Shown here: one piece after another, positions 5,089 through 37,437 of the stretch
Position numbering within the stretch: position 1 is the stretch's first letter
How the letters are laid out: each line of letters opens with the position of its first letter
Origin: Spirochaetota bacterium
Lineage (GTDB): Bacteria; Spirochaetota; Brachyspiria; Brachyspirales; JACRPF01
Direction of reading: 5' to 3'
Assembly: GCA_038043445.1 (NCBI GenBank)
Contig: JBBTBY010000098.1
Location: 1 to 38,214 of the forward strand
Length of the DNA: 38,214 nt
Notes under the pieces: generated by a model
The model's input: the letters and a program-made list of their open reading frames with translations, nothing else
What the model was told of the DNA's origin: nothing
Databases searched by the model: none
Program-made: the position numbers and the translations under genes

Positions 5089-6135
5089 TCAATTGCTTTT
5101 ATTTATGAGATTCACTATCACCTTCATAATGACGTCCTTCTCCTCAGGCCTGCTCTCGGCGATGAGCAGTGTCAGCGCAACGAGCGCATTGTCCGCCAGC
5201 CGTTTTGATCCGTCATCACGATACAGCAGTCCGTTCTTTGCAAGAAAGTGAAGGAATACCGAAGCAGCGATACGCTTGTTCCCGTCGACAAAACAATGGT
5301 CCTTCACAACATAGTATAGAAGTGCTGCGGCTTTCTCCTCGACGGCCTGCAAAAGATCGGCACCCGCATAGGTCTGATATACCGCTTCAATGGCGGCCCT
5401 GAACGCATCCCCGCCGCCCATGGCAAAAAGATCTGAACCGCCGTAAGAATTTTTCAGCTCATCGATAATGACAATTGCCTCATCATACGTCAATCGATAG
5501 AGCTCTTTCTTCGACGTGTCCCGAATCTCCAATGTGCCATGATCATAGCGATCAAGGACCTCAAGCGCATACCAATAATCCGCCACAACACGCAACAGCG
5601 CCTGTGCTTCAGACCCTGTCAGTTCGCGATGTATCACCACATTCGTCAGTAAACGTACGCTCTTTTCAAGATCTTTCAGACGTGCATTCTCTGCCACAAG
5701 ACGTTTTTCGTTGATCGTATAACCCTCTATAAGATGCCTGCGAAGTACTTCGGTGGCCCAGATACGGAATTGCGTGCCGCGTCTGGTGTTTACCCTATAT
5801 CCGACAGCAATTATCATATCGAGATTGAAAACCTTTATCGTGCGTTTTACCTGCCGTTCTCCTTCCGTTCGAACTGCTAAGATATCCTTAGTAGTTGAGC
5901 TCCGACGCAATTCACGGGCTCGATAGATATTCTGAATATGCATAATGATATTTTCACTGGTAGTACCGAACAATCCCCCCATATCCATTTGAGAAAGCCA
6001 AACCGTATCATCTTCCAGACGAACATCGATAGCGGTTTTCCCGTCATTGCTTCTATAGATGATCACTTCGCCATGCTGCGGGCTTTCATGTTCCATTCCA
6101 CGAACAGGCTTACGTTTATTTCGTGCTTTTTTCAT
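5089..6135 (-). CDS. RhuM-family protein with C-terminal Fic/Doc domain
   Basis: This is a 348-residue fusion. Residues about 20-150 match RhuM virulence-type proteins (TVWLSQMDMGGLFGTTSENIIMHIQNIY, VFNLDMIIAVGYRVNTRRGTQFRIWATEVLR), a DNA-binding-like module common in phage and toxin-antitoxin settings. Residues about 210-340 are a Fic/Doc domain with HCFVDGNK at 280-287. The motif has GNKR rather than GNGR, which in the Doc branch goes with phosphorylation of a target such as EF-Tu rather than AMP transfer; that activity is inferred here. The residue after HxF is D, as usual. GAGAGGG upstream supports the start at 6135, and a second ATG 13 codons in is possible. No separate antitoxin gene is visible, so the N-terminal part may control the toxin domain in cis. 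Confidence 0.85.
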   Translation of the reverse strand: MKKARNKRKPVRGMEHESPQHGEVIIYRSNDGKTAIDVRLEDDTVWLSQMDMGGLFGTTSENIIMHIQNIYRARELRRSSTTKDILAVRTEGERQVKRTIKVFNLDMIIAVGYRVNTRRGTQFRIWATEVLRRHLIEGYTINEKRLVAENARLKDLEKSVRLLTNVVIHRELTGSEAQALLRVVADYWYALEVLDRYDHGTLEIRDTSKKELYRLTYDEAIVIIDELKNSYGGSDLFAMGGGDAFRAAIEAVYQTYAGADLLQAVEEKAAALLYYVVKDHCFVDGNKRIAASVFLHFLAKNGLLYRDDGSKRLADNALVALTLLIAESRPEEKDVIMKVIVNLINKSN

Positions 6136-6282
6136 CGGTCAACCCTCTCGCACGCTATTCTATTCCTGCCGGCAGTATATGCAAGTCCCCTATCCTCTAG
6201 CGGCGGTGCGGAAATAAGAATACTATTTTTATACGTATGACGCGGACAACAAGCCAGTCAATACATCTGCATATTCTTATGA

Positions 6283-6308
6283 TATCACATGATATACGGC
6301 CCCGAGAA
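6283..6308. repeat. 26-bp dispersed repeat, copy B
   Basis: This copy matches 4649-4674 at 24 of 26 positions in direct orientation. Together the copies bracket about 1.6 kb that contains the RhuM-Fic gene and the HExxH remnant. Confidence 0.6.
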
Positions 6309-6335
6309 GCCCCATCGTAATAAGAAATAGGATTG

Positions 6336-6368
6336 AATATACTGAAAGGCTGCGACAAATATTGACGT
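6336..6368 (-). promoter_or_regulatory. Dyad promoter, leftward, no adjacent gene (site 2)
   Basis: On the minus strand ACGTCA-ATATT-TGTCGC (6368-6352) is followed by 10 bases and TATATT (6341-6336). The nearest leftward gene, RhuM-Fic, starts about 200 bases away at 6135, so a long leader or a lost gene is implied. Confidence 0.5.
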
Positions 6369-6400
6369 AACAATGCCCGGACAGGGGCGTTCGCGTGCTA

Positions 6401-6446
6401 TTGACATTACTCAACATCTTGAGTATATTTACTCAGCACATTGAGT
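6401..6446 (+). promoter_or_regulatory. Promoter with two tandem operators before AAA_14 gene
   Basis: A perfect TTGACA (6401-6406), 17-bp spacer and TATATT (6424-6429) precede the ATG at 6464. Two 16-bp inverted repeats, ACTCAACATCTTGAGT (6409-6424) and ACTCAGCACATTGAGT (6431-6446), start 22 bp apart, or about two helical turns. The first fills the spacer and the second covers the expected transcription start. A dimeric repressor binding side by side on one DNA face is the likely reading. Confidence 0.7.
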
Positions 6447-6463
6447 AAAATAAGAAGGATAGT

Positions 6464-7657
6464 ATGTATACACGCCTGCAGTATAAGGCCGTGTCGGAGC
6501 GGCTTAGTGAGCCGCGTAGGTACATCCAAATACTCTTCGGGCCGCGCCAGACGGGGAAGACCACGCTCGTACAGCAGGTGCTGGAACGCATCGCAATGCC
6601 TTCGCTCTATGTTTCTGCGGACAGTGCCGGGGCGGAATCGAATGCCTGGATAGACCAGCAGTGGGAGACGGCCCGCATCCGTCTGCGTACCGAAGGCAGG
6701 GGAAAAGGGTTCATTCTCGTGATCGATGAAGTACAGAAAGTGCACGATTGGAGTACCGCGATAAAAAGGCAGTGGGATAGGGACACGAAGGATGATCTCG
6801 GCATCAGGGTGCTCCTGCTTGGTTCATCGCCGTTGCTTATACAGCACGGCCTGCGCGAGACACTGGCAGGAAGATTCGAGATGATGCGTCTTACGCACTG
6901 GTCATATCCCGAAATGAAAAAAGCGTTCGGGTGTACCGTAGAACAGTTCATGTATTTCGGCGGATACCCCGGCGCGGCGGCGTTCATGGGCGATGAGGAC
7001 CGCTTCAGGCACTATGTGAAGGATTCTCTCATCGAAACGAGCATTACCAGGGATGTGCTCATGATGACGAGGATAGACAAACCCGCCCTGCTCAAGCGCC
7101 TGTTCGAGCTCGGCTGCCTGTATTCGGGACAGATAATGTCATACACAAAAATGCTCGGACAATTGGCCGATGCGGGCAATACGACGACACTGTCGCATTA
7201 TCTGGACCTTCTTGCCGGCGCAGGGATGATAAGCGGCATGCAGAAGTTCTCGATGAAGGCGGTGTATGCACGCTCATCAAGTCCGAAATTCATGGTGCTC
7301 AATACGGCGCTCATGACGGTGCAGATGGGATCATCCTTCAAGGAAGCGCAGGCGGACCCTGATCGATGGGGACGTATTTGCGAGTCTGCTGTCGGCGCAC
7401 ATCTGTTGAACGCTTCGGCGGACGGTACTATCCGGGTGTGCTATTGGCGCGAAGGCGATCATGAAGTCGATTTTGTCCTGTCAAAAGGGAAGAGCATCAT
7501 CGCCATTGAGGTCAAGAGCGGACGTTCGAGAGGCATTCCGATCGGCATTGGACCGTTCAGAAAGCGGTACGCATCCGCAAAAGTACTGCAGATCGGTACC
7601 GGCGGTATATCATTCGATGAATTCCTGTCACTGCCGCTTCCCGCCTTGTTCGAATAG
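6464..7657 (+). CDS. AAA_14 / DUF4143 ATP-binding protein
   Basis: This 397-residue P-loop ATPase has Walker A GPRQTGKT at 26-33, Walker B FILVIDEVQK around 83-92 and a sensor-like LLLGSSP at 118-123. These mark the AAA_14 group of archaeal-type ATPases. The C-terminal third (about 200-397) is DUF4143-like, with a winged-helix-like middle. It ends in a restriction-nuclease-like fold (E334-V-D336-F, IAIEVKSG near 347-353). The family is very common in accessory regions and its role is not established. AGAAGG before the ATG is a fair ribosome site. It has an elaborate operator-covered promoter and faces a second member of the same family (7734-8957), with only about 75 bases between the two stop codons. 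Confidence 0.88.
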   Translation: MYTRLQYKAVSERLSEPRRYIQILFGPRQTGKTTLVQQVLERIAMPSLYVSADSAGAESNAWIDQQWETARIRLRTEGRGKGFILVIDEVQKVHDWSTAIKRQWDRDTKDDLGIRVLLLGSSPLLIQHGLRETLAGRFEMMRLTHWSYPEMKKAFGCTVEQFMYFGGYPGAAAFMGDEDRFRHYVKDSLIETSITRDVLMMTRIDKPALLKRLFELGCLYSGQIMSYTKMLGQLADAGNTTTLSHYLDLLAGAGMISGMQKFSMKAVYARSSSPKFMVLNTALMTVQMGSSFKEAQADPDRWGRICESAVGAHLLNASADGTIRVCYWREGDHEVDFVLSKGKSIIAIEVKSGRSRGIPIGIGPFRKRYASAKVLQIGTGGISFDEFLSLPLPALFE

Positions 7658-7733
7658 CACGTTACGATATGCCCGCATTAATTCATGTCGTCCCGGGCGC
7701 CGGAAAGTCATGGCATGTTTAAAGCGGTCGATA

Positions 7734-8957
7734 TCATGGCAGGGATGACAGCCATCGATGAGCAGACACAACCAGCGTATCATTCCCGCCCGTGCGTATG
7801 ATCTTGCGGATATTATCGCGCCGTGTCAGCTGAACCGCGGGGATATCGAGCACTTTCTGGAAATGCAGAAGACTTTTTGACGGGGATTCGTCGTTCATTT
7901 TCGCCTCTATGATAAGGAACGGCGTGCGTTCTTCAGCAAGGAGGAAATCGACCTCTTCCTTTTCCTTGTTCTTGAGATAGTGCAGCGAAAAACGCCCCCA
8001 TCCGAGATCATTCCAGAGCGTTACCGCCCGGTAAAGCTCAAGCGCGGCCATATTCTCAAAACGAAGCGAAGCGTCGCTTACCTCAGGGTAATTATAGAGA
8101 TATAGTTTTCTCTCTTTCAGAATGGAACGCGGTATCTTCGGCGTCCACGTACCGATGCTGAAGCTCACATAGAAATCCTCGAGGAGCTTTATCCAGCTTT
8201 TGACCGTATCGAAGCTTACCTGAAGTGCAGCGGCGATGTTGTTCACCGAGAACGGACTGCCGACCTTTGAAGGAAGCATCGACACGAGCAATTCCAGTGT
8301 ATCGAGGTCCTTAATTTCGGTAAGTGTGCGTATATCCTCCCGGACTATCTGCTGGGCGAAGGTTTCCGACCAGCGGCGCCAGAAAGAAGCATCGTTCTTG
8401 ACGAATGGTTCGGGGAAGCCGCCGTATGCGGACAGACGTTCCCAAAGCGCGCCGGTCTCCTTTGCAGGGTTCAGGTCCCAGTCATGCAGCAGATCGGCGC
8501 GGAACGCGTCAAGCCGCCGCCGCTTGCTGCAAAGCTCAGAAAGTGTGAACGGGAACAGGTTCATGGATACATATCGCCCGGTGAGCGCATCACCGCCGCG
8601 TTTGGAGAGATCGAGCCTGCCGCTCCCGGTAATCACGAACTGATAGGCATCTGCGAATTCGTCATAGACCCCTTTGAGATAATTCTTCCATCGCGAGTAT
8701 TTATGGATCTCATCAAGCATGATGAGCGGCGGCGTCTTATCGGTCCTGTTCAATTCCTGGAAGAACAGCGGGTTTGCGGTGAACTTCTTTTTGTCGGTTA
8801 TGCTGTCCCAGTTGAAATACAGCGTGTTCGCATATGCGTCCGCCAGTGACCGCGCGAACGTTGTTTTGCCGCATTGCCGCGGACCGCTTATGAATATGAG
8901 CTTTCTGTCCTCTGCCAGGGTCTGCAATGCGGCCCGGTATAATGCCCTTTTTACCAT
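7734..8957 (-). CDS. AAA_14 / DUF4143 ATP-binding protein (second copy type)
   Basis: This 407-residue protein has Walker A GPRQCGKT at 25-32, Walker B LIMLDEIHK at 78-86 and VITGSGRLDL as sensor. The DUF4143-type C-terminal half ends in EEVDFLLAEERTPFLIIEAKMND, a restriction-nuclease-like core. It is clearly diverged from the facing gene at 6464, so this is not a recent duplication. I chose the ATG at 8957. An ATG-ATG 21 bases upstream (8978) overlaps the predicted -10 hexamer and has no ribosome site. With TATTAT ending 6 bases before 8957, the mRNA is predicted to begin at the start codon, so the gene would be leaderless. Confidence 0.88.
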   Translation of the reverse strand: MVKRALYRAALQTLAEDRKLIFISGPRQCGKTTFARSLADAYANTLYFNWDSITDKKKFTANPLFFQELNRTDKTPPLIMLDEIHKYSRWKNYLKGVYDEFADAYQFVITGSGRLDLSKRGGDALTGRYVSMNLFPFTLSELCSKRRRLDAFRADLLHDWDLNPAKETGALWERLSAYGGFPEPFVKNDASFWRRWSETFAQQIVREDIRTLTEIKDLDTLELLVSMLPSKVGSPFSVNNIAAALQVSFDTVKSWIKLLEDFYVSFSIGTWTPKIPRSILKERKLYLYNYPEVSDASLRFENMAALELYRAVTLWNDLGWGRFSLHYLKNKEKEEVDFLLAEERTPFLIIEAKMNDESPSKSLLHFQKVLDIPAVQLTRRDNIRKIIRTGGNDTLVVSAHRWLSSLP

Positions 8958-8963
8958 ACGGCT

Positions 8964-8992
8964 ATAATACAGCATCACTTGGAATTAGTCAA
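8964..8992 (-). promoter_or_regulatory. Sigma70-type promoter giving a leaderless mRNA
   Basis: TTGACT (8992-8987), a 17-bp spacer and TATTAT (8969-8964) are followed by six bases and the ATG at 8957. The expected transcription start falls on the A of the ATG. Confidence 0.65.
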
Positions 8993-9031
8993 GACTATTT
9001 CCGAGTACCCTCGGATCCAGCCAGCCCATTG

Positions 9032-10513
9032 TTACAGTTTCGCCAGCGCCCTGAGCACATCCAACATCGCTACCGTATCCCGCTCGCAGTATTTGAGGAG
9101 CGCCGTGCGCGTGCGCTTCACCTCGTTCTTCGGCGCATCGTAATGGAGGCTTTCATACGCGCGGCTGGCCGAACTGCCGTCGGCAATATCCAGATCATCA
9201 TATCCGCCGCCTTTGACGATAGCGGGATATACGCACTTTATCGAGTATTTGCCTTTCATCGCCGGCGAATAATACGCATACGATGAGAACGGGTAAGAAA
9301 GATCGACGAGCCTCTTTACGATGGCGTTGATGCCAGCGCGGTATTTCGGCAGTTCATCGGCGAGCGCATTCAGCCGTGTCCGTTCATACGGCGTATACAT
9401 GAGGATATCGCCTTCTTTGCCCGCTTCATCGATAAGCTGCCTGACGAGCTTCTCGCGCGGGTCGTTCTTCCCGTCACCGAGGAAGACGAAATGCTCGGGC
9501 TTGGCTCCCGGCTTTTTGATCCGGTGCATGGAATACTGGAACGCTATCGTCTGATACGGATGCGTACCGTCGAATAACGGCACCGCGGGCATCATGGTCT
9601 CGAAGTCGAGGAAGTAGAGCGGATAGGTGAGCTTCGCGAGGAATTCCCGTATCTCCTCCTTTTCGATATGCGGCTTGCCGCTGCGGTAGCTCGCAAGCTC
9701 GATGGTGTTCTTGCCGCTGAGCGCGTAGTCCTTCGGTATATCGTCAAGGGCGACTATGTTCTTATCGAACAATTCCCATGCCTTCTTGCCGAAGCGTGAG
9801 AGCGTGAACACGCTGTCTTCCGGCATATCTTTCCAGCAATGACCGTAGAAAGAACATCGATACGGCGCTTCACAGTGCTGGCCGATGGCCACATCCGGCA
9901 TCTTCTTTGCCGCGAGCACTTTCTTGAGCTGCCTGACGGTATCGGCGATATCGTTTCGCATTTCCTTCGCGAGCGGCAGTACGGACTCGACGGTAAAAAG
10001 ATCCTTGATCCTTATATCGCCTTTGCGTACATACTCCTTGTTCAGGTGCACTATCGATACGTCCTTCACGTTCATCCCCGCCTCCGTGAGCACATAGTAC
10101 TGTATGGCGGCGTCAGTTGCATAGGTATCGTTGACGGCTCCGCCGCTCTTTACTTCGTAGATATGATACGCGCCGTTCCTGAGCACAAGAATATCCACCG
10201 CGGCGAGCACGCCGTTCGCTACGACTGCCGCTTCATAGATGATCTTTTTACCGTTCTTTATCGCATCCGATGTCTTCTGTATCGCCGGGCCGAAAAGCGG
10301 ACGTCCGTCTGCGTCGTGTTCCGGACTCATATCCGCTCCGCCGGGGAATATCCCCTGAGCAAGAGGGCCTATGTCATGCCCTTTGTCGAATATCGCCTGC
10401 TGCCCGTCGCTTATCTCGTCCTGCCAGTCATAGTGATGGCGATAGAGATAGAGCGACTTCTCGCATTGCATGCCGCGTACTACCGTGGATTTGCTCAGTT
10501 CGTATGCTCTCAT
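9032..10513 (-). CDS. DUF2779 RecB-like / RNase H-like nuclease
   Basis: This 493-residue protein joins a RecB-family nuclease domain to an RNase H-like domain. The nuclease part (about 1-230) shows D107, E120-V-K122, Q138 and four candidate iron-sulphur cysteines (C17, C214, C220, C226). The second part (about 297-493) shows FLDFET at 301-306, TPYER near 374-378 and LKYCERDT near 473-480, matching DUF2779. The order copies the first 500 residues of the helicase fusion at 1176-4538 but without a helicase. DNA or RNA end processing is inferred. GGAGG four bases before ATG 10513 supports the start. It is divergent from the PcfJ-like gene, and the two share one dyad promoter element in the 107-bp gap. 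Confidence 0.85.
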   Translation of the reverse strand: MRAYELSKSTVVRGMQCEKSLYLYRHHYDWQDEISDGQQAIFDKGHDIGPLAQGIFPGGADMSPEHDADGRPLFGPAIQKTSDAIKNGKKIIYEAAVVANGVLAAVDILVLRNGAYHIYEVKSGGAVNDTYATDAAIQYYVLTEAGMNVKDVSIVHLNKEYVRKGDIRIKDLFTVESVLPLAKEMRNDIADTVRQLKKVLAAKKMPDVAIGQHCEAPYRCSFYGHCWKDMPEDSVFTLSRFGKKAWELFDKNIVALDDIPKDYALSGKNTIELASYRSGKPHIEKEEIREFLAKLTYPLYFLDFETMMPAVPLFDGTHPYQTIAFQYSMHRIKKPGAKPEHFVFLGDGKNDPREKLVRQLIDEAGKEGDILMYTPYERTRLNALADELPKYRAGINAIVKRLVDLSYPFSSYAYYSPAMKGKYSIKCVYPAIVKGGGYDDLDIADGSSASRAYESLHYDAPKNEVKRTRTALLKYCERDTVAMLDVLRALAKL

Positions 10514-10566
10514 TCATCCTCCCTGTTCCGTGCGGTATATGCGAATCGAATATCCGCCTGTATTAC

Positions 10567-10614
10567 AGTATATCACATCCTGCGACAAATTCTGTCATTC
10601 CCGGATGCTATTGT
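10567..10614. promoter_or_regulatory. Shared dyad between divergent promoters (site 3)
   Basis: The dyad GCGACA-AATTC-TGTCAT (10582-10598) serves both directions. Rightward it is 10 bases from TATTGT (10609-10614), which ends six bases before the PcfJ-like ATG at 10621. Leftward it is 9 bases from TATACT (10572-10567), which precedes the DUF2779 gene. A single bound regulator could therefore control both genes. Confidence 0.6.
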
Positions 10615-10620
10615 ATCCCC

Positions 10621-12228
10621 ATGATAACAACCGAGCCGGAAGCGGCCGTCGATCGTATACGGCGGCATTTCGGGGCCGTACGCGAAGTCCCGGATATTGA
10701 GATAATGCTCCTGCCCAACGGCCACACGGTGCTCACCTGCAAGGCCGCACACGGCATCGGTGTAAGGGTGCTTCCGCACAGCGGCACTTCGTTCACGTTC
10801 ATGATGGACCTGGGATCCGACCCGCACATACTTTCGCACCCGCGGGCAGCGGATGAGCCCGATCTCTACTGGCTGCTTTCTGCGGGTGTGATCCCGATTA
10901 TGAAACAAGACTGCATGACCTCCATTACCGACTACATATGGCAGCACCTGAAAGGCGGCCGCACCGAGGACATCATTGAAACCGCAGCAGAGACGGCGAA
11001 CGACATCTGGCCCATGCATATCCCGGCCAAAGTAACGGACATCTCGGACTACCCTATCCCGGAGGCGATGAAGTTCATTCACAAAAGGCTCAGGGAATTG
11101 GCAATGTCCGCGGTTGAAATGTGCGATCCTGCCGCGCGAAAGACCGCTCTTCGCTTTCTCCCCCATGCCCGTTTCGATGTATACCGTATTCTCGTACGTC
11201 ATAATTCCGAGCGCCTGCGCGAGCTCAGCGAAACGGCCCCGGGCGTGCTGCTCTTCATAGTCGGCCTTACCCGCATAGGAGCAGGTGAAGAAGCGGAGAG
11301 AATGATACATGACGTTGAACGCGGGCGTCCGCTGAAACCCATGCTCGATGATGTTCTCCCCGCATGGCTGAGCAGGCTTATGACCTATCTCAGAAGCAAT
11401 GGCAGGGACCAGGGTTTTTTCTACGGCGGCGTTATGAACAGACTTATGAAGCTCTCGCCGGCAGAGGAAAAGCGCCTGCTGCTCGAAAAGCGGCTCCTCA
11501 TACTGCGCATGCGCCATCGTGTTCCCATCAATGCCGTCTGGCTCCCGCCGCCCATCGCCTTTTCGCCCGAGGATATACCTGTCACTACACGGGATAATGG
11601 CACATGGTACCGCGTCATGTACGGTTCACGTCTTTCCGTATGCGGCGACGAGAACGCTCCGCGCGCATCTTCGTTCATCGCCTTCATATCAAAAAATGCC
11701 GTAACGCTCGGAAGATACGCATCGAGGGGCAGCGGGAAAAAGATCGGGGAAATGTACGACTACACGGCCGCGCACGGCCTCGCGCCGGGCAGAAAGACAT
11801 CGCTCATGCGCCTTATCCGCGAGAGCAATCAATGGCACCGGACAGCGCTCGAGGTGGACAGGCTTCGCGCCGAGCTCAGAAGCGGCAATGCCGATGATGT
11901 AGCGCCGGATACGGTGCTCATGAACCCGTTCAGCGCGTGGGAACATGCGGGCTCGACCATTACGCCGATAACGACGGCGCAGCGGCTGTTCGATGAGACC
12001 GCTGCTATGAAGCACTGCGTTGCACGGTTTGTTCGGGACGCCGTTGCCGGGACGCGGTTCTTTTTCTCAGCCGTGCACGGCAAAAGCCGTCTTACCATCG
12101 AGGTCGTGAACGATAACGGCCGATACACGCTGGGCCAGGTGAAGGGTGTGAGGAATCGTGAGCCGAAGGAGAAAGAGGAAAAAATGGTGCGGCAATGGGC
12201 AGCGGAGCAAATGAAAATATCCGCATGA
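10621..12228 (+). CDS. PcfJ-like domain protein
   Basis: This 535-residue protein is of unknown function. The C-terminal region (about 440-520) looks like the PcfJ domain: TTAQRLFDETAAMKHCVARFVRDAVAGTRFFFSA, then a strand-rich LTIEVVNDNGRYTLGQVKGVRNR. PcfJ proteins take their name from a conjugative-plasmid gene and have no settled role. The N-terminal 430 residues have no motif I recognise and appear soluble and helical. No signal peptide or membrane segment is seen. The start at 10621 is preferred over far-upstream in-frame ATGs, which would overlap the divergent gene. It has no ribosome site, and its -10 hexamer ends six bases upstream, so the message is predicted leaderless. Confidence 0.75.
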   Translation: MITTEPEAAVDRIRRHFGAVREVPDIEIMLLPNGHTVLTCKAAHGIGVRVLPHSGTSFTFMMDLGSDPHILSHPRAADEPDLYWLLSAGVIPIMKQDCMTSITDYIWQHLKGGRTEDIIETAAETANDIWPMHIPAKVTDISDYPIPEAMKFIHKRLRELAMSAVEMCDPAARKTALRFLPHARFDVYRILVRHNSERLRELSETAPGVLLFIVGLTRIGAGEEAERMIHDVERGRPLKPMLDDVLPAWLSRLMTYLRSNGRDQGFFYGGVMNRLMKLSPAEEKRLLLEKRLLILRMRHRVPINAVWLPPPIAFSPEDIPVTTRDNGTWYRVMYGSRLSVCGDENAPRASSFIAFISKNAVTLGRYASRGSGKKIGEMYDYTAAHGLAPGRKTSLMRLIRESNQWHRTALEVDRLRAELRSGNADDVAPDTVLMNPFSAWEHAGSTITPITTAQRLFDETAAMKHCVARFVRDAVAGTRFFFSAVHGKSRLTIEVVNDNGRYTLGQVKGVRNREPKEKEEKMVRQWAAEQMKISA

Positions 12229-12401
12229 GGCTCAGACATGGCTCGTGATGGGGAAAAGGTGGGGATCGCGAAAATACCGGTCACTTGTTGCGACAGCATT
12301 GTGTGCATCATAACGTCATCTAGATAGTTGAGAACAAGGGGTCATGACCCCTTGTTCTCTCTTTTCGCGACTGGATCAATTGTTCAGATGGATCTGTATT
12401 T
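12229..12401. other. Convergent gap with palindrome
   Basis: No gene is seen between the convergent PcfJ-like and FlhA-like genes. In particular, no remnant of an FlhA cytoplasmic domain could be recognised here. The only structure is the 30-bp palindrome at 12330-12359. Confidence 0.5.
12330..12359. repeat. Perfect 30-bp palindrome (24-bp core repeated at 37292)
   Basis: The half-site GAGAACAAGGGGTCA is followed directly by its exact complement. The central 24 bp recur unchanged at 37292-37315. It lies between convergent genes and could fold as a bidirectional terminator, though T-tracts are poor (CTCTCTTTT to the right). A protein-binding or mobile palindromic element is equally possible. 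Confidence 0.6.
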
Positions 12402-13221: not shown

Positions 13222-13254
13222 ATGGTACTGCATGGTCACGACATTATCTGCCGC
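13222..13254 (-). promoter_or_regulatory. Dyad promoter of the FlhA-like gene (site 8)
   Basis: On the minus strand GCGGCA-GATAA-TGTCGT (13254-13238) is followed by 10 bases and TACCAT (13227-13222). It overlaps the 3' end of the exonuclease gene. It is the weakest of the set, with one mismatch in the first half-site and a poor -10. Confidence 0.5.
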
Positions 13255-13732
13255 TGCGGTTTCGCCGCGTATATTTCAGGTACAGCTTTGCACATGCCGT
13301 CGCATCCGATAGCGCCTCGTGATGGTTGAGCTTTATCCCGTATTCCCTGCAGCAGTCCGCGAGCCCTTTATCATAGATCTTGTACGTGCACGCCGTCTCG
13401 TACTCCGGGACAGCGATGCCGAAATGCGCCAAGGTATGCCTGAGACAGCCGTCATCGAACGATATATTATGAGCGACAACAAGTTCGCCCTCGATGTACT
13501 TTTGTATCTCCGGCCAAACTCGATCGAACGTCCTTGCATCGGCGGTCATTGCCGCATCGATGCCGTGTATCTCGATGAAATCCGATCGGTAACTGTTCCC
13601 CGGCGGCTGTACGAGCGATGAATACGTGCGCTGTATCCTGCCGCGTACAACGCGCACAAGGCCGACCTGGCATATACTTGTTCTCCCGGTGCTGGCAGTC
13701 TCAAAATCAATGGCGGTGAATGTGTTTTTCAT
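13244..13732 (-). CDS. DEDDh 3'-5' exonuclease, DnaQ-like
   Basis: This 162-residue exonuclease is of the DnaQ/Pol III epsilon type. The motifs are FTAIDFETAS (D9, E11), AHNISFDD (D93 or D94) and NHHEALSDA (H138, D143), making a complete DEDDh set. It lacks any extra domain and is shorter than a replicative epsilon subunit. A repair, RNA-processing or small-exonuclease role is therefore more likely than the core proofreading one. Its ATG overlaps the TGA of the preceding DnaB-N-like gene (ATGA at 13729-13732), which implies translational coupling. It is the last gene of a three-gene operon headed by the dyad promoter at 14710-14742. Confidence 0.9.
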   Translation of the reverse strand: MKNTFTAIDFETASTGRTSICQVGLVRVVRGRIQRTYSSLVQPPGNSYRSDFIEIHGIDAAMTADARTFDRVWPEIQKYIEGELVVAHNISFDDGCLRHTLAHFGIAVPEYETACTYKIYDKGLADCCREYGIKLNHHEALSDATACAKLYLKYTRRNRSGR

Positions 13733-14202
13733 TTCTCATCCTTCATCGGCGGGAACGGATACCGTGTCTGTATGAATTCATGAAGCTCGGATATGCGCGC
13801 GGCAACGGATGCAACGGCGTGTTCGTCGCCGGGCGCCCTCATGCTGAGCATTATACTTATAAGCCGCTTCCATATCTTTCTGAGGAGCGAGACCTCAAGA
13901 AGCTTAATCGCGTAGTAGTATGTACGCGTAACATCCGGTATGACGTCGATAAGTTCGCGGATACGGGCCTGGCGTTCATCCGGGGTTTTCTCGTTAAGGT
14001 AGCGCTCAAATAATTTCTCAGCCGAGAATTTTTTCTTTTCTTTGAACGCATGCCGAAGATCGCGGTAAAGCTCGCGGTGGAGATCGTCGGCGAAGTCGTC
14101 CGGTTCCAGAAGGTCGATGGCGACCGCCGCCGCACCCGGCGACTGGAGCATGGAGCCGAGCACAAGCCGCTCCTCCTCTACGGGAATATCGTCATACTTC
14201 AT
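13729..14202 (-). CDS. Stand-alone DnaB N-terminal-domain protein
   Basis: This 157-residue protein resembles only the N-terminal helical domain of replicative DnaB helicase. The clearest part is residues 6-60, PVEEERLVLGSMLQSPGAAAVAIDLLEPDDFADDLHRELYRDLRHAF, which matches the usual DnaB opening of EAE-type start, LGA-like helix and F-x-x-x-H-x-x-I-Y. There is no P-loop or RecA-type helicase domain; DnaB is about 450 residues. In DnaB this domain forms the trimer-of-dimers collar and contacts primase. The start at 14202 is preferred over 14235, since GGGAAAG lies just upstream. The gene overlaps the end of the upstream gene and is coupled to the exonuclease gene. Interaction with the host helicase or primase is inference. 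Confidence 0.7.
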   Translation of the reverse strand: MKYDDIPVEEERLVLGSMLQSPGAAAVAIDLLEPDDFADDLHRELYRDLRHAFKEKKKFSAEKLFERYLNEKTPDERQARIRELIDVIPDVTRTYYYAIKLLEVSLLRKIWKRLISIMLSMRAPGDEHAVASVAARISELHEFIQTRYPFPPMKDEK

Positions 14203-14689
14203 GCTCTTTCCCTGCGGCGAACACCCGCGCCGCATCGAGCACGACGCGTATGGAAGCCGCGCTCATGAGCTCTTCGGGCTGATGCACGAGCGGATGGCGT
14301 TTGAGCCGCGCGATAAGGCCGTAGTCGAGCGTCTTGAAACGGAGCTCTACGAAAACACGCGCATCAAGCGTGAGCGTACGGAGAGCGGCCGCGAAACGCG
14401 TTTCCGCCTGCCTGAGCCCCTCCGCGAGCGACGCGCTGTCGCTTTTTTTCACGGATTCAGAAAGCCGCAGGAGCTCTTTCTTCAATTCGGACGCCCTTTG
14501 TTTTGCAGCATCATCGGCAAAGAAGGCCGGAAAATCATCAAAAATATGCGCGGCATCCAGCGTGATCTCGCATTGCCCTGCGGGGGAAGAATATACCGCA
14601 TACGCATTCCTGTCGGCTTCGGGCACATCGGCGCAGAGAGCCTTGAACCGTACCAGTGCCGCATCATAGAGTTTTTTCGTGTCAATCAT
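14192..14689 (-). CDS. Unknown soluble protein heading the DnaB-N/exonuclease operon
   Basis: This 165-residue protein matches no family I recognise. It appears soluble and mostly helical, with a charged central helix (about 66-100, SELKKELLRLSESVKKSDSASLAEGLRQAE) that may form a coiled coil. It has no signal peptide or membrane segment. An AGGAGG seven bases before ATG 14689 is the best ribosome site nearby. It is the first gene of the operon driven by the dyad promoter, and its 3' end overlaps the DnaB-N-like gene by 11 bases. The operon partners hint at nucleic-acid metabolism, which is inference from context only. Confidence 0.7.
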   Translation of the reverse strand: MIDTKKLYDAALVRFKALCADVPEADRNAYAVYSSPAGQCEITLDAAHIFDDFPAFFADDAAKQRASELKKELLRLSESVKKSDSASLAEGLRQAETRFAAALRTLTLDARVFVELRFKTLDYGLIARLKRHPLVHQPEELMSAASIRVVLDAARVFAAGKEHEV

Positions 14690-14709
14690 TGTTCGCCTCC
14701 TGTGCGCTC

Positions 14710-14742
14710 AATCTACTGCAAAGATGCGTCAGAATATGTCGC
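14710..14742 (-). promoter_or_regulatory. Dyad promoter of the three-gene operon (site 5)
   Basis: On the minus strand GCGACA-TATTC-TGACGC (14742-14726) is followed by 10 bases and TAGATT (14715-14710). The ATG is at 14689 with a strong AGGAGG. This site carries the flanking T and A that extend the dyad to 19 bp. Confidence 0.6.
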
Positions 14743-14908
14743 AGGCTGGAGAAAGACACAATGTCAATGCTCCCTGCGGGTATTGCTCTTGCGCTGATCG
14801 CTATCCCGCCGGTTGAATAAAACGTTGTTCAGTGATACCATGCACAGGCCGATAACACTGTGACGATATGTTATACTGATGGTTACGCTGATATGAAACG
14901 GTGGATAC

Positions 14909-15307
14909 ATGACACCCGATGATGCTGTTACACATTGGATAGAGATCGCTGCGCGCGATCATGACACGGCAAAGCTGCTTCACGAACACGGGAAATATCC
15001 CGAATCGGTGTTTTTCTGCCATCAAACCCTTGAGAAGATCATCAAAGGCTATTACTATTCTGTAAAACGATCCGCTCCGCCATATATACATAATCTGACC
15101 AGACTTATCAAGGAAGCGGGCATTTATGAACTGCTTTCAGAAGAGCAGAAGGATTTCATTGATTTCCTGAGTCCGCTCAATGTGCGTTCACGTTATCTTG
15201 ATGAGGAAGAACGGCTGCTTGCTGCAATGACCCCGGAACGCTGCGGGGAGATAGTGAAAAGAACGGAGGGACTGTATCAATGGATACTGACGTTATTGAA
15301 AAAGTAA
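14909..15307 (+). CDS. HEPN-domain toxin-like protein
   Basis: This 132-residue four-helix HEPN protein opens with AVTHWIEIAARDHDTAKLLHEHGKYPESVFFCHQTLEKIIKGYYY, the standard HEPN start. R54-x6-H61 (RSAPPYIH) fits the HEPN RX4-6H ribonuclease motif. Such proteins are usually the toxin partner of an MNT nucleotidyltransferase, which follows here with a 28-base overlap. In characterised pairs the MNT protein inactivates the HEPN toxin by adding nucleotides; that is family knowledge and not shown here. GGTGG precedes the ATG, and a TATACT hexamer at 14872-14877 could be its -10, but no good -35 was found. Confidence 0.88.
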   Translation: MTPDDAVTHWIEIAARDHDTAKLLHEHGKYPESVFFCHQTLEKIIKGYYYSVKRSAPPYIHNLTRLIKEAGIYELLSEEQKDFIDFLSPLNVRSRYLDEEERLLAAMTPERCGEIVKRTEGLYQWILTLLKK

Positions 15308-15582
15308 AGCAGTATGCAGAAGCTGTTCGTGCGGTAATGCCGGTAAAAATGATCATACTGTACGGATCATACGCACGCGGCACACAGAACAGGTACAGCG
15401 ATATCGATGTCGCTGTCGTTTGCGATAAGTTGAACGGGGATATCCTTGACATCAGCTTTCAGCTGTATAAGCTCCGCCGTCCGATCGATACCGATATAGA
15501 GCCGATACTGCTCGAGTCCGGTGATGATTTCTTACGCTCTATCCTTGAATATGGGACCGTGGTGTATCCATCCGCTGCATAG
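15280..15582 (+). CDS. MNT-type minimal nucleotidyltransferase (antitoxin)
   Basis: This 100-residue protein carries the polymerase-beta-type nucleotidyltransferase signature GSYARG (29-34) followed by D41-I-D43. A further acidic residue lies in DTDIEPILLE (about 71-80). Its length is normal for minimal MNT proteins. Overlap with the HEPN gene implies coupled translation, as usual for this module. It ends 18 bases before the end of the convergent MBL gene. Confidence 0.9.
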   Translation: MDTDVIEKVKQYAEAVRAVMPVKMIILYGSYARGTQNRYSDIDVAVVCDKLNGDILDISFQLYKLRRPIDTDIEPILLESGDDFLRSILEYGTVVYPSAA

Positions 15583-37232: not shown

Positions 37233-37291
37233 CCTCTTTTTCGTCCCAATTCCGATATGTGCTGCGCGGATAAGTATCCGTCATGACAGAA

Positions 37292-37315
37292 AACAAGGGG
37301 TCATGACCCCTTGTT
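37292..37315. repeat. Perfect 24-bp palindrome (second copy)
   Basis: AACAAGGGGTCA is followed directly by its exact complement, identical to the core of 12330-12359, about 25 kb away. It lies between the secreted-protein gene and the P13-like gene, with no T-tract after it. Confidence 0.65.
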
Positions 37316-37437
37316 CCGTCAGCACAATGAAATCCGCAGTATATCAATATCCCATCCCGCGCAGTGATATTTTTATTATGGAATGATCATCGATATTATC
37401 CGTACAAGATATCCATACACGCTCAAAGGAGTTCCCC

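Follow-up and report, generated by a model that had tools for sequence, protein, structure and literature searches.

A stand-alone DnaB N-terminal domain encoded with a DEDDh exonuclease and an orphan protein in one spirochaete genome

Described relatives of the encoded proteins

The C-terminal domains of DnaG primases resemble the N-terminal domains (NTDs) of the replicative helicase DnaB. The helicase-binding domain of DnaG (PF08278; 2lzn) is a structural relative of the DnaB NTD and, like the protein described here, a helical partner module without a motor. In H. pylori, a construct of the DnaB globe and helices 7 and 8 suffices to bind the C-terminal domain of primase, the globe with helix 7 alone shows much weaker primase binding, and DnaB lacking the NTD shows none (PMC2761005); these data are used here qualitatively, the KD values printed in that paper being inconsistent with their wording. 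Residues I119 and I125 of Bst DnaB are reported to have a role in primase binding, I119 as a primase-contact residue (PMC2761005). The open-access literature searched held no description of a naturally occurring, stand-alone DnaB NTD.

The locus studied here encodes such a domain on the window, which is the whole stretch analysed (38,214 bp) and at the same time the entire contig C98 of genome G000 (5.13 Mb in 178 contigs, estimated to be 97% complete). The solo domain has the fold and helix order of the DnaB NTD (PF00772; 2r5u, Bst DnaB 2r6a), covers the same extent as isolated NTD-plus-hairpin DnaB constructs and keeps invariant core residues; unlike DnaB, it is a separate short gene lacking the linker helix and motor, with 20-30% identity. 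Unlike the helicase-binding domain of DnaG, its matches in PDB and Pfam favour DnaB. The neighbouring exonuclease shares its domain and all catalytic motifs with stand-alone DnaQ-like DEDDh exonucleases (RNase_T; PRK06195-like, PHROG 192) and shares 40-54% identity with exonucleases encoded as single genes in spirochaetes and on Bacteroidota plasmids. It differs from PRK06195 and PDC-S48 proteins in lacking their C-terminal part, and from the lone DnaQ-like enzymes in being co-encoded with a DnaB-type domain. The gene downstream, compared with the FlhA/SctV export gate (PF00771), keeps the membrane half without the cytoplasmic domain. The parts of the unit are confirmed, and their combination is unusual and comes from one genome only.

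Organization and products of the unit

Table 1. Features of the locus (positions in the window) and the evidence for each
Feature	Position	Strand	Evidence
First gene of the unit: orphan protein of 165 residues, without family match	14192..14689	-	coding score, GGAGG before ATG
Stand-alone DnaB N-terminal (collar) domain, 157 residues	13729..14202	-	PF00772, alignment, model
DEDDh 3'-5' exonuclease of 162 residues with no domain but the exonuclease	13244..13732	-	RNase_T and DEDDh profiles, motifs
Possible fourth gene, FlhA membrane half (FlhA-N), 266 residues	12402..13202	-	PF00771, spacing
Terminator-like perfect palindrome of 30 bp in the gap that follows the unit	12330..12359		further copy in the window, stretches in G001

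The initial annotation had read the first three genes as an operon, and this is borne out by their common strand, their overlapping frames (11 bp between the orphan and the solo domain, ATGA between the solo domain and the exonuclease) and their coding scores. Under a codon model built from 16 of the window's genes, the claimed frame scored best for each gene, with 0.17 nats per codon for the orphan, 0.24 for the solo domain (the strongest of the unit) and 0.08 for the exonuclease, and an antisense ORF of 226 codons scored negative. A Shine-Dalgarno-like sequence precedes all four starts, among them a GGAGG shortly before the orphan ATG. Judged by sequence criteria, the three frames are real genes, presumably expressed. 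The dyad promoter that had been proposed ahead of them was not supported: all that is visible is an imperfect 7-nt dyad (6/7 pairs, 14725-14743), no better than chance, one or two dyads of such quality being expected by chance in the 219-bp gap by a hand estimate. The promoter-like total of the region upstream of the unit equals that of shuffles, and no sigma-70-like site was found there on the minus strand.

The FlhA-N gene follows the exonuclease after 41 bp and, from this spacing, may be a fourth member of the operon. It matches PF00771 with E=3.9e-43 (profile 2-230 of 657) and encodes the membrane half, in which the FHIPEP signature loop is kept, the cytoplasmic domain being wholly absent; a full FlhA, 38% identical to it, is encoded elsewhere in the genome (contig C80). 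Its ATG is preceded by AAGGAG, and its coding score is weak (0.02) and best in its own frame. Two genes lie side by side here of which each has kept no more than the N-terminal half of a large machine protein; this may reflect a shared truncation history, or coincidence. The palindrome behind these genes (GAGAACAAGGGGTCATGACCCCTTGTTCTC, 30 bp, perfect) has at least two copies in the window, the one of Table 1 and another at about 37290-37320, and recurs as near-identical stretches of 25-31 bp in G001, which belongs to another genus of the family; it is a dispersed terminator-like repeat.

The window between 5 and 15.6 kb is island-like and rich in Fic/RhuM, DUF4143 ATPase, HEPN/MNT and PcfJ genes. 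Positions 5089-12228 encode a RhuM-Fic protein, two AAA_14/DUF4143 ATPases, a DUF2779 protein with a Cas4-like domain and a PcfJ-like protein, and an overlapping HEPN gene and MNT nucleotidyltransferase gene, a toxin-antitoxin-like pair, lie divergent from the three-gene unit at 14909-15582 (+). Relatives of the same order have a low GC content of 26-30%; by this, their size and their dnaG-rpoD arrangement they resemble Brachyspira, which marks the present genome as that of a spirochaete. A Borrelia_P13-type protein encoded on the contig is in line with this.

The solo domain matched PF00772 with E=6.8e-13 (49 bits, cut-off 23), the phage_DnaB and DnaB profiles with 1.9e-9 and 5.7e-8, respectively, in their N-terminal parts only, and DnaB chains of the PDB in a phmmer search; the DnaB-binding model of DnaG, PF08278, gave E 0.13 (13.1 bits, below the cut-off of 29.1). 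It comprises a globe (about residues 8-90) and a helical hairpin (91-121, 127-147), and alignment with 14 spirochaete DnaB NTDs places its end before the linker helix. Neither the linker helix nor a RecA-type ATPase (DnaB_C, Walker A/B) is present in the 157-residue protein, and the next frames are those of the exonuclease and FlhA-N. In the structure model (pLDDT 79) the protein consists of helices throughout, with a long pair at the C-terminus, and resembles the M. tuberculosis DnaB NTD (2r5u) with TM 0.7-0.79; full DnaBs in the PDB were matched as well. The alignment used by the structure model contained viral DnaB NTDs; because DnaB sequences were part of that input, the fold match confirms the assignment but is no independent proof of it. 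Profile match, alignment and model all agree on the earlier proposal of a DnaB N-terminal domain alone, without a motor, and the similarity to DnaB survived both profile and fold comparison of the gene.

The exonuclease matched RNase_T with E=2.4e-22 (80.7 bits, cut-off 24) and the PADLOC DEDDh profile with 6.9e-27, and its translation contains DFETA (Exo I, DxE), HNISFDDG (Exo II, D) and HHEALSDA (Exo III, H....D). With both profiles matched and all motifs intact, the assignment made in the initial annotation stands, and the protein is by its sequence a complete DEDDh 3'-5' enzyme, predicted to trim DNA or RNA. The profile of the phage-defence candidate PDC-S48 was matched over positions 1-171 of 411 only, the full architecture of 411-512 residues being absent. 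The first protein of the unit, which had been called novel, indeed had no match in Pfam, NCBIfam or PADLOC and none better than E 0.22 in PHROGs. No relatives of it were found in 99 other genomes, genome contigs, viral contigs, phages or plasmids and nothing credible among PDB sequences, and its AlphaFold model, made without homologues, reached a pLDDT of 51 and was unusable.

Distribution and divergence of the solo domain

No orthologue of the solo domain was detectable in G001 (the only same-family genome among those searched), phages, plasmids, viral contigs or genome contigs, and none in about 100 relatives among the matches listed, which were full-length DnaB save for one fragment at a contig end. 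Among the matches listed, 45 genomes stood out by additional or suspect PF00772 matches, and after a check of these, stand-alone DnaB NTDs in other spirochaetes were rejected. The short frames lay mostly at contig ends (G056, G066, G145, G387), G242 carries a broken dnaB copy, and the matches in G298 and G302 were partial or contained stops; matches in frames of about 580-625 codons would, from their length, be DnaG C-termini. Relatives of the exonuclease are widespread single genes, with 54% identity in the spirochaete G070, 40% in G001 and 52% on a Chryseobacterium plasmid, and no DnaB-type or orphan-like gene stood beside them in the neighbourhoods examined, those on plasmids being judged by annotation. 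The initial annotation had named a lack of adjacency in any other genome as one of two refuting outcomes, and the three genes were indeed seen together nowhere else in the genomes, phages, plasmids and viral contigs searched. The unit is known from one genome, which makes a conserved functional system less likely.

The host DnaB is a normal helicase of 474 residues, encoded in a ribosomal-protein operon, 30% identical to the solo domain and the only other source of PF00772 matches in the genome. The solo domain keeps 16 of the 34 positions that are conserved in at least 80% of 14 DnaBs, and true DnaBs keep between 25/42 and 34/34. By hand count, 10/16 conserved positions are kept in the globe versus 6/17 between residues 93 and 144, a contrast that is suggestive and statistically not firm. 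The core residues E11, G16, F37, Y96, Y97 and R108 are retained; five hairpin positions invariant in the 14 DnaBs (N93, I100, K104, I111, E135) are all changed, and a W and an I align to I119 and I125 of Bst DnaB, respectively. The divergence of the hairpin, including the W at the position of I119, speaks against the solo domain simply inserting into the collar of a normal DnaB. The terminal branch of the solo domain is the longest of the tree (3.5, median 0.67). A recent duplication of the host dnaB was rejected as its origin, with identity at only 30%; a branch of this length could not be placed by the tree. A viral source was likewise rejected, the 10 viral loci from an alignment-based search being all full-length or near full-length helicases.

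Possible roles of the solo domain

As candidate roles, the initial annotation had offered pairing with DnaB or poisoning it, binding of primase, and a part in fork handling, DNA uptake or defence. The best reading of the unit is that of a genuine, lineage-specific small operon that is presumably translated. Tentatively, we regard the solo collar as an adaptor or a competitor for DnaB/primase contacts that is expressed, specific to the lineage and made together with the exonuclease. A collar without a motor would act, if at all, by protein-protein contact, with either primase (at its helicase-binding domain) or the host DnaB (at its collar) as docking partner, or it might self-associate through its own hairpin. 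The co-translated DEDDh exonuclease would then be brought to primers or 3' ends, or kept close to them, where DNA is replicated or repaired; alternatively, the solo domain may compete with DnaB for primase. We infer expression of the unit as well as complex formation, partner and effect. The H. pylori construct is of equal extent and binds primase, which implies that a motor-less protein of this extent can act, and makes the role of an adaptor or competitor feasible. In favour of this role are the three intact frames with coding signal, Shine-Dalgarno-like sequences and translational overlaps, the cut at a domain boundary that keeps the globe and both hairpin helices and removes linker helix and motor, and the preserved core residues and complete set of DEDDh motifs. 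The extreme divergence of the solo domain, with a W at the position of Bst I119, and exonuclease relatives that do not lie beside DnaB-type genes speak against it. Moreover, no second genome carries the unit, so that conservation offers no sign of the association being under selection.

Nearly as likely as an adaptor or competitor, given the diverged hairpin and the lack of a second genome, is a relic that is still translated. It would be what remains of the N-terminus of a DnaB-type helicase, acquired or duplicated, after loss of the motor, would lie by chance between an orphan and a mobile exonuclease and would yield a protein without specific function. This would fit the missing orthologues and the longest branch, the many altered invariant DnaB positions, the island-like setting (contig 5-15.6 kb), the next gene, FlhA-N, also an N-terminal-half-only paralogue, and the existence of broken dnaB copies in other spirochaetes such as G242. 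A relic is, however, harder to reconcile with 157 codons free of frameshifts and stops, with a coding score above those of the other genes of the unit, with the ATGA that couples the frame to the exonuclease and the good Shine-Dalgarno-like sequence before its start, and with the core fold residues that were kept.

It is unlikely that the solo collar serves as a replication poison or anti-invader switch, joining or blocking the DnaB ring of host or phage so that forks stall and the exonuclease degrades the exposed ends. The hydrophobic hairpin helices are kept and are of the type that forms DnaB collar dimers (PMC2761005), and the neighbours include the HEPN/MNT pair and other island genes; yet the changes at all five invariant hairpin positions make mixing with DnaB less likely, no PADLOC defence match was obtained for the unit beyond the generic exonuclease domain, and the unit is absent from the phages, plasmids and other genomes searched. 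Less probable again is that the motor-less collar constitutes an independent adaptor recruiting the exonuclease, and with it the orphan, to primase or the fork as a new replisome accessory or interference module.

DnaG was not found in G000 or G001 by PF08275, TIGR01391 or PF01807. In relatives dnaG lies directly upstream of rpoD; in G000 no RpoD match reached the cut-off, and in G001 the rpoD contig starts inside rpoD. The absence of DnaG is best explained by these interruptions, so that the missing dnaG-rpoD locus is probably an assembly gap in both family assemblies, and a genome without DnaG, hence a split primase, was rejected. That the solo domain supplies the helicase-binding domain in trans to a primase is accordingly very improbable: the likeness of DnaG C-terminal domains to DnaB NTDs and the failure to find DnaG here, when Brachyspira-like relatives have it, would favour this, but neither assembly seems to contain the dnaG-rpoD locus and the solo domain is far closer to the DnaB NTD than to PF08278.

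If the solo collar binds primase or DnaB, the docking platform between helicase and primase would be detachable from the motor and reusable to direct other enzymes, and fork control in spirochaetes, which are little studied, would gain a small handle. As a relic, the solo collar would exemplify how a domain fragment can persist as a translated gene.
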